Positions 3,653 through 25,079 of a stretch of 37,540 nucleotides of DNA are shown here, in pieces. The notes below the pieces were generated by a model. It was not told the origin of the DNA and did no database searches. It worked only from the letters and a program-made list of their open reading frames with translations. The position numbers and the translations under genes were made by a program. Origin of the DNA: Fibrobacter sp. (GTDB taxonomy: Bacteria > Fibrobacterota > Chitinivibrionia > Chitinivibrionales > Chitinispirillaceae); the NCBI GenBank assembly GCA_012515615.1, contig JAAYYB010000169.1, forward strand, positions 1-37,540, in the 5' to 3' direction. The stretch's first letter is position 1; every line of letters starts with the position of its first letter.

Positions 3653-4549
3653 ATGAATTCTCCTGTAAAGAGCCTTTCCGAATTTGTAAAAAAAGCGTGG
3701 CCGTTATTTCCGGCCGCGCTTTACCTTATAGGGTTTTTGATAGTAGTTTTTGTTTACCTGCTGGGCTTGAGTCTTTCAGATCCTGCTGCCGGGATAGAGT
3801 TCCCTTCCTTCAAACTGTTTCAGATCCTCTTTGCTGACAGTCAGTTTCAGAGTGCACTGATCAACACGTTGCTTTTCACCATTGCCGGAACACCGCTTGA
3901 GCTTCTTATCGGCTTTCTGCTGTCATTAATGCTGTACCAGAGTTTTATGATGAGAGGTATAGTGCGCAGCATTTTCCTTATCCCGTTGGCTGTGCCGGCT
4001 CTGGTTACGGCAATGCTGCTTTATATCCTGTTTGATTTTCCGGGCGGTCACATAAACCATCTGCTTTCAGGAAATTACTGGTCATTGCCTGCAATAATCA
4101 GTGAGCCTGTAAACTGGAGAGGATCGCAGTTCTTCGCGATGGGAATCTCTTTACTTGGAAAAGTGTGGAGAGATATGCCCATTTCGATGCTGATACTTTT
4201 AAGTGGACTCAACAGTATTGATCCGGAACTGTTTGATGCAGCAAAAACGATGGGGGCATCATTATGGAAAAGGATCTTTTCGATCATCATACCACTGATT
4301 ATTCCATCTATGTCTATAGTGGTACTGCTGCGTTCCGTTGAGATGTGGAAAGAGTTTATCTTTCCTTTTGTACTTGCAGGCAGATATGATCTTTTGGGTA
4401 CATTGATAGACTTTTTCTATAATGAAATCGGAAATTCCAACAAAGCTGCCGCTGTAGCCATAATAATGGTGGCGTGTATTGTGCTGACAACGATGATTTT
4501 AATGAAAATTATGGATATGCTGCAGAAATTACTGCTGAGGCGCGCATAG
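3653..4549 (+). CDS. ABC transporter permease, MalF/UgpA type
   Basis: This is an inner-membrane channel subunit of the importer. It has several hydrophobic helices and the cytoplasmic coupling (EAA) motif ELFDAAKTMGASLWKRIFSIIIPL, which docks on the ATPase. The track start at 3605 would overlap the binding-protein gene by 44 bases. The ATG at 3653 is preferred because it follows the upstream stop by 4 bases and has AGGGA just before it, giving 298 residues. It is followed after one base by its partner permease, as expected for a heterodimeric pair. Confidence 0.9.
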   Translation: MNSPVKSLSEFVKKAWPLFPAALYLIGFLIVVFVYLLGLSLSDPAAGIEFPSFKLFQILFADSQFQSALINTLLFTIAGTPLELLIGFLLSLMLYQSFMMRGIVRSIFLIPLAVPALVTAMLLYILFDFPGGHINHLLSGNYWSLPAIISEPVNWRGSQFFAMGISLLGKVWRDMPISMLILLSGLNSIDPELFDAAKTMGASLWKRIFSIIIPLIIPSMSIVVLLRSVEMWKEFIFPFVLAGRYDLLGTLIDFFYNEIGNSNKAAAVAIIMVACIVLTTMILMKIMDMLQKLLLRRA

Positions 4550-4550
4550 A

Positions 4551-5402
4551 ATGGCCATAGAGAGAAGACAGGCACCGATGACACCGGGAAAGAAGGTGAT
4601 CTGGGGGACCGGAATACTAATAGGCCTTTTTATAGTAATGGGCCCGGTGTATTTGCTTGTAAAGTACTCGATCAGCGACATTCAAAGTATTAACACCGGA
4701 GGGGACCCGATACCATGGTGGCCATTTGATCCAACCCTGCAGATTTTCCTTTATTTATTCAAAGACCAGCATTTTTACCATGTCCTGCTCAACAGTGTTA
4801 TTGTTGCATTTTCTACAGTCATGTTATCCATGGCTCTGGGTATACCTGCTGCTTATGTTCTTGGCAGATACAGAGTGCCGGGGAGAAAGGCTCTTCTCCT
4901 TGGAATAATCTCTGTCCGCCTGTTCCCTGATATTGCTTCTGTAATACCGGTTGTGGAGTTTTTTATCCATATTGGAGCCCATCAGACATACTGGGGGGTA
5001 GTGCTGGCGCACACTCTGTTAGCCTTACCATATGTGATTTTTATCGGGATCGGTGCTTTTGAATCTATCCCTTCTGATTTGGAACAGCAAGCCTGGGTCA
5101 TGGGTGCAGGTTCATTTCAGACTTTTTTCAAGATTCTGCTTCCATTGGCTGTTCCCGGGCTTGCTGCAGCTGCGATCTATACATTTTTACTCTCATGGGA
5201 TGAGTTTATCTTTGCATATTTTCTCATGCTGGGAAAGCAGGAAATTTTCACACTGACATTATACCTCAACGGAATAAAATATGCAGAGCCCCAGAACCTT
5301 CTGGCTGCAATTTCTGTCTGTTTGAGTGTGCCGGTTGTAATTTTCAGTCTTATGGTTCAGAAGTATATGATAGCCGGTGTTTCTACCGGTTCTGTGAAGT
5401 AG
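4551..5402 (+). CDS. ABC transporter permease, MalG/UgpE type
   Basis: This is the second channel subunit. About six membrane helices are visible, and the EAA coupling loop reads DLEQQAWVMGAGSFQTFFKILLPLAVPG. At 283 residues it matches the MalG size class. The ATG lies one base after the stop of the first permease, with GAGG about ten bases upstream inside that gene, so the two are probably translationally coupled. The C-terminal end lacks any extra domain. The pair with the preceding MalF-like gene and the following ATPase makes the assignment secure, while the imported solute stays unknown. Confidence 0.9.
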   Translation: MAIERRQAPMTPGKKVIWGTGILIGLFIVMGPVYLLVKYSISDIQSINTGGDPIPWWPFDPTLQIFLYLFKDQHFYHVLLNSVIVAFSTVMLSMALGIPAAYVLGRYRVPGRKALLLGIISVRLFPDIASVIPVVEFFIHIGAHQTYWGVVLAHTLLALPYVIFIGIGAFESIPSDLEQQAWVMGAGSFQTFFKILLPLAVPGLAAAAIYTFLLSWDEFIFAYFLMLGKQEIFTLTLYLNGIKYAEPQNLLAAISVCLSVPVVIFSLMVQKYMIAGVSTGSVK

Positions 5403-6532: not shown

Positions 6533-6910
6533 ATGAACTGGATAAAATTTAGTGCGTTAACTCTGTTGATTCTTGTAGTTCCGCTGTCTGGAATCAGCTG
6601 CAGCGGAGAGAGTGATGAGGCGGCAAAGAAAAAGCTTGAGGTAATACTTGAGGATGACCTGAAGGCCATTCTTGAAGGAATTCCCGATACGGCTCTTATA
6701 GAGAAGCCTTATTACAATCTGTTTTCTTATAAGCAATACGATAAAGGAAACTACTCCAAGAAAGCTGAGGCTGACTTTTTTTTCATGAAGAGTGTGCATG
6801 TTAAGATAGTCAGAAAATACCGGTATCACAGATCGAAGCGGATGTGGGAACGATACTATAATGAGTATGGGTTCATTTCTGAAAAAGCTGATTCTGCGGG
6901 GGATAAATAA
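6533..6910 (+). CDS. small exported protein, possible lipoprotein, function unknown
   Basis: I do not recognise this 125-residue protein. It starts with a hydrophobic signal segment ending G-I-S-C. This could be a lipobox, but the -3 residue is Gly rather than Leu, so lipidation is uncertain. The mature part is charged and Tyr-rich (KYRYHRSKRMWERYYNEYG). It begins 11 bases after the ATPase stop behind a TTAGGA site, and its end overlaps the next gene. It therefore probably belongs to the transporter operon and may act at the membrane with it (inference). Confidence 0.6.
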   Translation: MNWIKFSALTLLILVVPLSGISCSGESDEAAKKKLEVILEDDLKAILEGIPDTALIEKPYYNLFSYKQYDKGNYSKKAEADFFFMKSVHVKIVRKYRYHRSKRMWERYYNEYGFISEKADSAGDK

Positions 6911-23711: not shown

Positions 23712-23736
23712 GCCCCCGGTTATTTTCATCCGGGGC
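23712..23736 (+). terminator. GC-rich hairpin after pheA
   Basis: GCCCCCGG and CCGGGGC pair with one bulged C around a ten-base loop. There is no real T-run, so it is a weak intrinsic terminator or an mRNA 3' stabiliser. The next promoter's -35 box starts on the following base. Confidence 0.45.
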
Positions 23737-23771
23737 TTGTTACCGGCAGGTATGAGGGATATAATTATAAT
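23737..23771 (+). promoter_or_regulatory. promoter of the secreted-protein gene, likely leaderless transcript
   Basis: TTGTTA (23737-23742), 17 bases, TATAAT (23760-23765), with a second TATAAT at 23766-23771 touching the ATG. A start site about seven bases after the first -10 falls on the ATG at 23772, implying an mRNA with no 5' leader. Confidence 0.6.
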
Positions 23772-25079
23772 ATGGGTAACAAACCGGCAATTCTGTTTTT
23801 GATCCTGATAGTCTCTTTTATTGCAGATGTCAGAGCCGTGGTTCTGTTTGAAGATTATTTCAGCAATGAATCTCAATCGATTCTCAACTGGACCGGCGTG
23901 ATTAATAATGGTGGAAGTATTGGCTACGGTGGTGGCTGTGCAGCGATTGACAATTCAGGATCTGTAAACTCGGCAATGGCAATTCATAATATGCCTCTTA
24001 AACCACCGGACTTTACATTTTCAGGAAGAGTAGTGACAGATGATCCCGGCGCGGGGATAATTTTTTGTTTGAGCCGTTCCAGCGTGGGGACCAGCGGCTA
24101 TGCAGTTGTGACCGGTGAAGGCGGTGTTTATGCTTACAAATACAGTCCGGGGGAGATTAGTGAGCTGCATTCGGAGAGTAGCCCTTTTGTCAGAAAAAAA
24201 GACAATCTGATCTCTGTGAGCAAAAAAAAGGAACGGATGACTGTTTTCTGTAACGGGTACTTTGTTTTTACATTCATCGATTCCGCTTACAATACTGGTG
24301 ATATCGGTCTTCTGGTTCAGCCTTACACATCGGCGGATTTTGATGATATTCAGTTCAGGGAAGAAACGTATGATTCTACCAGATATGCCTGTTTCAGTGA
24401 TGATTTTTCGGTTCCTGGTAATTATGGTTGGATTTTCAGCGGGAGTGGAAAGCTTGAACGGGAAGAGGGTTTTCTCGGCATAGTTACATCAACTCATCAG
24501 AAAGCCTACTACGGGCTTCATATCCCATTGACAGATTTTACCCTGAAGACGGATGTAAGCTTCAGTGGAGGTGACAGCAGTATTCTTTGCGGTTTTTTTG
24601 TTCTTTCAGATTCAGTCCGGCAGTTCTTCTGTATAAATCGCAGGGGAGAATGTGCTTCTTACAGTGACGGCGGGGATACAGTTACCGGTTACCTTGACAA
24701 GGCAGGCCCGGACGGGTGGAATAATCTGGAGCTGAATAAAGAAAGCGATTCGCTGATATTTTCTGTCAACGGGACTATCATGGGGAAAGCAGACGGAAAA
24801 TCTTTGTATGAGGAAGCAGGACTGTTTGTTTCTTCAGGTGCGGCGGTGATGTTTGATAATTTCAGGTTAACTGATCCGCTGGGATGTAATAATGTGACCG
24901 CAGTCAGAGTTTACAGGCAGATAAGCGGTGTGCAAGAATCGATAGCCGGTCTGAATGCAGATATGCTGGGAAGAAAGCTTCTTTCCGGCAAGGCATCAAT
25001 GCTTCTGGTAAAAACGGGTAAATCAGGAAGCCATAAGAGGATGAGGCTCCGCGCCTTTGGGGCGCGGAGTATAGATTGA
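23772..25079 (+). CDS. secreted protein with two concanavalin A-like domains, function unknown
   Basis: This 435-residue protein has a signal peptide (ILFLILIVSFIADVRA). Two similar modules follow: VLFEDYFSNES...NWTG (about 24-200) and CFSDDFSVPGNYGWIFSGSG (about 207-375). Both have the DDF start and the late phi-D-D/N-phi-R strand (ADFDDIQFRE, VMFDNFRLTD) of LamG/DUF1080-like jelly rolls, suggesting carbohydrate binding. The last 60 residues (LNADMLGRKLLSGKASMLLVK) faintly resemble type IX sorting tails, which is inference. No good ribosome-binding site is visible, and a hairpin lies inside the last codons. Its TGA abuts the convergent L28 stop with no gap. Confidence 0.7.
   Translation: MGNKPAILFLILIVSFIADVRAVVLFEDYFSNESQSILNWTGVINNGGSIGYGGGCAAIDNSGSVNSAMAIHNMPLKPPDFTFSGRVVTDDPGAGIIFCLSRSSVGTSGYAVVTGEGGVYAYKYSPGEISELHSESSPFVRKKDNLISVSKKKERMTVFCNGYFVFTFIDSAYNTGDIGLLVQPYTSADFDDIQFREETYDSTRYACFSDDFSVPGNYGWIFSGSGKLEREEGFLGIVTSTHQKAYYGLHIPLTDFTLKTDVSFSGGDSSILCGFFVLSDSVRQFFCINRRGECASYSDGGDTVTGYLDKAGPDGWNNLELNKESDSLIFSVNGTIMGKADGKSLYEEAGLFVSSGAAVMFDNFRLTDPLGCNNVTAVRVYRQISGVQESIAGLNADMLGRKLLSGKASMLLVKTGKSGSHKRMRLRAFGARSID
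25047..25069. terminator. strong hairpin inside the 3' coding end, shared by convergent genes
   Basis: CTCCGCGCC and GGCGCGGAG form a nine-pair stem around five bases within the last codons of the secreted-protein gene, 11 bases past the L28 stop on the other strand. A T6 run comes only 14 bases later on the plus strand, so termination is plausible but not textbook. Confidence 0.5.

Follow-up and report, generated by a model that had tools for sequence, protein, structure and literature searches.

A promoter placed at the start codon predicts a leaderless mRNA for an exported jelly-roll protein gene in a Fibrobacter-type genome

Leaderless genes and the setting of X

Leaderless mRNAs are a recognized and unevenly mapped mode of translation. 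In bacteria, leaderless (TA-led) genes carry a TANNNT or TATAAT element about 10–12 bp upstream of the start codon and form a scattered minority of the genes (Zheng et al., 2011; PMC3160421). A related arrangement is described as the "-10 adjacent to ORF" mode of Deinococcus-Thermus, where a -10 element located a few bp before the ORF results in a leaderless mRNA, and about one third of the genes of D. radiodurans are estimated to be leaderless (PMC12340547). The main text of the former study does not mention Fibrobacter, and a full-text literature search returned no paper that, judged by title and abstract, addresses leaderless genes in this group. Little transcript mapping has been reported so far for Fibrobacter-type bacteria.

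The gene analyzed here, called X, is found in a stretch of 37,540 nt (the window), which is contig C154 of a 5.05-Mb genome in 430 contigs. X (23772–25079, forward strand) encodes an exported protein of 435 aa from an uncharacterized family. It is preceded by an NlpC/P60 gene and pheA (prephenate dehydratase), and followed by rpmB on the opposite strand and a gene for a metallo-beta-lactamase-fold protein. Our preferred reading, to which we assign a probability of about 0.74 with the start of transcription predicted from sequence, is that the mRNA of X is leaderless, with a leader of 0–3 nt. X would have its own sigma-70-type promoter with the -10 element 6 nt before the start codon, and RNA polymerase would start on the A of the ATG or no more than about 3 nt away from it. 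The mRNA would thus have neither a leader nor a Shine-Dalgarno (SD) site, and ribosomes would presumably initiate directly on the AUG at its 5' end, a mode known from other leaderless mRNAs.

Across several families of the order (loci L003, L005, L008, L034 and L036–L040), the family of X adjoins rpmB, which encodes ribosomal protein L28 (25083–25262), often in convergent orientation. At the junction with the convergent rpmB, a strong hairpin is located inside the last codons of X (25046–25070, forward strand; z -2.6). The sister genome has a hairpin of different sequence in the same place, also within the coding region (z -3.0), and the C-terminal extension of X apparently results from translation through a terminator-like element.

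Promoter and start region

The first-pass annotation had described a TTGTTA-17-TATAAT promoter with an expected transcription start at or next to the ATG of X, and our sequence scan confirms this. The -35 element TTGTTA (23737–23742, forward strand) matches the consensus at 4/6 positions and the -10 element TATAAT (23760–23765, forward strand) at 6/6, giving 10/12 matching positions with a spacer of 17 nt. The first base of TATAAT is 12 nt upstream of the ATG at 23772, and 6 nt separate the end of the hexamer from the ATG. Position 23772 lies 7 nt past the last base of the hexamer, which makes the A of the ATG the predicted transcription start. The base before this A is a T, and a pyrimidine-purine step is a favored context for transcription start. 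Position 23772 is also the only nearby in-frame ATG and the first possible start past the upstream stop codon.

No SD match was found at normal spacing from this ATG, as the first-pass annotation had also stated. Within the normal window, nothing better than GGA at a spacing of 12 was seen, and the only SD-like run is GAGGG (23754–23758, forward strand), 13 nt from the ATG. Because GAGGG is located upstream of the -10 element, it would be absent from a transcript made from this promoter. The accompanying remark that good sites are present for most genes of the window is broadly correct, if somewhat optimistic: an SD match of at least 4 nt is found for 26/36 called genes and one of at least 5 nt for 14/36. 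The 16S rRNA, and with it the anti-SD, was not found in the fragmented genome, and SD use was therefore judged from the genes themselves.

The same features could be read differently if X has a leader, because transcription reads through from pheA or begins at a promoter farther upstream, and the match to a promoter at the ATG arose by chance. Translation would then proceed without a proper SD, relying either on the distant GAGGG or on a start region that is AT-rich and has little structure. A GC-rich hairpin (23712–23736, forward strand) separates pheA from the -35 element. It is only weakly terminator-like, and read-through is possible because it is not followed by a full T tract. Weak SD matches are also common here, with 10 of the 36 called genes in the window having a match of 3 nt or fewer. 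However, the 13 nt between GAGGG and the ATG is too distant for normal SD pairing. We consider a leadered X unlikely, mainly from the ortholog comparison below.

Two further alternatives keep a promoter in this region and move one of the start points. A second TATAAT (23766–23771, forward strand) abuts the ATG, and as a perfect hexamer it could be the working -10, with the transcript starting inside the gene. Its -35 is poor (3/6), it is not conserved in the ortholog, and its use would give a transcript without the start codon; it is probably not a working -10 and we regard this as the least probable reading. Alternatively, the promoter could be real while translation begins from the in-frame TTG at 23799, which would leave a 27-nt leader. 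Both orthologs do have TTG codons a few codons in, but no SD precedes the TTG at 23799, starting there would delete the N-region of the signal peptide, and the members of the family begin with a basic N-region at the position of the ATG. This start is thus very improbable.

Among the 36 genes of the window, a single promoter-at-ATG match is only mildly unusual and on its own weak evidence. The expected rate of an exact TATAAT with a fair -35 located 5–8 nt before a start is about 0.0002 per start under a first-order Markov model. An exact TATAAT at this distance with a -35 of at least 4/6 was observed at 3/543 starts in the genome of X and at 0/209 starts in the sister genome, as counted with a simple custom gene caller in about 0.74 Mb and 0.26 Mb of the two genomes, respectively. 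The case for a leaderless X is convincing because of the ortholog comparison rather than the match in the window alone.

Conservation and direction of change

One further genome of the genus, the sister genome, was examined. Its ortholog of X has 48% protein identity, starts with ATG like X, and is found in the same gene order (NlpC/P60, pheA, X, rpmB in reverse, metallo-beta-lactamase-fold gene). Upstream of the ortholog the sequence reads TTGTCC-17-TATAAT-7-ATG, so that TATAAT begins 13 nt before the ATG, and the spacing from promoter to ATG is 6 nt in X and 7 nt in the ortholog. The intergenic stretches upstream are 120 nt in X and 126 nt in the ortholog, and they align no better than shuffled sequences (score 18 against a null mean of 16; 122/300 shuffles as good). 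As the intergenic regions are unalignable, the kept promoter motif is not leftover similarity. Neither GAGGG nor the hairpin at 23712–23736 is kept in the ortholog. Taken as sequence, both the promoter and its spacing from the ATG are kept while the surroundings have drifted, which argues against a leadered X with a chance promoter match; at genus level this conservation rests on one comparison, of two genomes. Among 72 ortholog-like pairs from sampled stretches of both genomes, X is the only one with TATAAT and a -35 of at least 4/6 located 3–10 nt from the start in both.

The family of X is present in 32/41 related genomes, and 37 of its members have assigned starts. A -10 accompanied by a -35 that matches at 4/6 or more positions occurs within 10 nt of the ATG only in the two X members of the genus. 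SD matches of 4 nt or longer precede about 30 of the other 35, among them the paralogs present in the two genomes (AAGGAGG and AAAGGAGG). By sequence, the lack of an SD combined with a promoter at the ATG is specific to X and its ortholog within the family. The leaderless reading of the first-pass annotation is thus supported by the spacing kept in the ortholog, the missing SD and the restriction to this pair. Because most other family members, paralogs included, have SD sites, SD-led initiation is probably ancestral in the family and the leaderless layout derived. Along the lineage of the genus, SD-led initiation of X would then have given way to the leaderless arrangement.

A search of the named genome collection for further orthologs gave one match only, a contig of a Fibrobacter sp. 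MAG. One homolog, in genome G010, has TATACT adjoining an ATG and was set aside, as its signal peptide is encoded upstream of that ATG. In genome G008, an X paralog occurs twice in inverted orientation on one contig (G008:C187; L021:2098–3459, with the reverse copy near 3747–4838). The two copies have the same match scores and the same ends as displayed, and this is possibly an assembly palindrome.

Over 728 starts, high-scoring promoters peak 5–9 nt before the start, with 6 in this bin compared to a mean of about 1.7 in each other 5-nt bin. All six are located at an ATG, and none has an SD match of at least 5 nt. Weaker -10 matches (5/6) are not enriched at the leaderless position, which means that the leaderless class must be small, and we rejected a genome-wide leaderless mode since only the high-scoring promoters peak. 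A scan of the genome with the exact pattern gave 15 sites compared to 5 in a reversed control, and 5 of the 15 open plausible genes.

The layout, a sigma-70-like promoter with its -10 located 6–9 nt before the ATG, is kept in the sister genome by three of four further candidates tested, whose identities as glycosyltransferase, TIGR02147-type and HD-GYP were assigned by eye from the sequence. The glycosyltransferase candidate (L071:386; sister locus L154) has TGTTATAAT, with 8 and 9 nt from the -10 to the ATG in the two genomes. This pair is 94% identical across the N-terminus, and because it is so close, the conservation of its layout says less. The TIGR02147-type candidate (L090:740, reverse; sister locus L157) has TTGAAC/TTGATT and TATACT/TATAAT about 6 nt from the ATG, while the HD-GYP candidate (L085:9035, reverse; sister locus L153) has TTGATA/TTGATT-17-TATATT at 7 and 9 nt. 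A flagellar-rod-like candidate (L078), likewise named by eye, was dropped as its copy in the sister genome is SD-led. The candidate at position 6533 of the window has TAGAAT, which is kept in the sister genome; it was rejected, with a weak -35 (3/6), an overlap with the end of the preceding ORF and a TAGGAT preceding the ATG.

These data make a small leaderless class in the genus likely. The chances seem about even that, in a genus whose genome otherwise uses SD sites, a conserved gene for an exported protein has gone over from SD-led to leaderless initiation together with a small conserved set consisting of the glycosyltransferase, TIGR02147-type and HD-GYP genes and perhaps lpxB. TTGNNN-17-TATAAT is also found 5–8 nt before the ATG of an lpxB-like gene (L168:1536) and an HTH-type gene (L161:1537, reverse), both candidates from the exact-pattern scan, and of a short exported gene (L165:1537). 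A family that is mostly SD-led and appears leaderless in one genus would offer a before/after comparison of a change in initiation mode. Gene finders that rely on SD sites may misplace the starts of such genes.

The X protein and its comparison with known systems

X had been called a secreted lectin-like protein, which fits its signal peptide and the pair of concanavalin-type jelly rolls, arranged in tandem, in a confident structure model (mean pLDDT 85, and above 90 across most of residues 21–370). The signal peptide covers residues ~1–22 (MGNKPAILFLILIVSFIADVRA; 23772–23837, forward strand), with the cleavage site placed by eye and a helix at residues 5–17 in the model. The first jelly-roll domain (residues ~22–197; 23835–24362, forward strand) is supported by the model and by fold match, and is CBM66-like by the family profile. 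This profile matches a levanase chain at profile positions 75–196 (E 2e-10), which we take to be CBM66 (PDB 4azz, 4b1l, 4b1m). The second domain (residues ~205–367; 24384–24872, forward strand) follows from the model and fold match.

The best fold match of X is 4jqt (E 6e-15), which spans both domains at ~12% identity, and the remaining fold matches, laminin G and galectin among them, are unspecific folds of the concanavalin type. The model of X does have the jelly-roll fold by which a concanavalin-like protein is recognized. X itself (P0001) has no match in Pfam or NCBIfam. The Pfam profiles 3-keto-disaccharide hydrolase and Laminin_G_3 match 18 and 3 of 38 family members, respectively (E up to 0.1), and X is not among them. 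From the modeled fold, the likeliest role of X would be binding of glycans at the cell surface or as a secreted protein.

The C-terminal tail of X (24954–25052, forward strand) is degenerate, reading D-x-LGRK... in the alignment, and is modeled with low confidence. In the family, the tail D-x-x-GRK...GxY gives a weak match to a type IX sorting domain in 3–4 of 38 members (E 0.002 or worse). The GxY part is lost in the two X members of the genus, and X shows no match to a type IX C-terminal sorting domain. The genome of X does encode SprA of the type IX secretion translocon, seen as SprA_N in a 2093-codon frame (G000:C338:36251–37516).

Compared to known proteins, X shares the jelly roll with the CBM66 of levanase (4azz, 4b1l, 4b1m) and with the two-domain BT3469 of Bacteroides (4jqt). 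It differs in its identity of ~12% to 4jqt and in having no Pfam match. At the level of initiation, X resembles the TA-led genes in having TATAAT ~10–12 bp upstream of an ATG start without an SD, and differs in that X is predicted from sequence and its layout is conserved for few genes only (PMC3160421). X and the Deinococcus-Thermus mode have in common a -10 located a few bp before the ORF, whereas the strong signature is found here at ~1% of the sampled genes. Collectively, leaderless initiation is known from other bacteria, and X would be a further case, likely a lineage-specific switch from SD-led to leaderless initiation.
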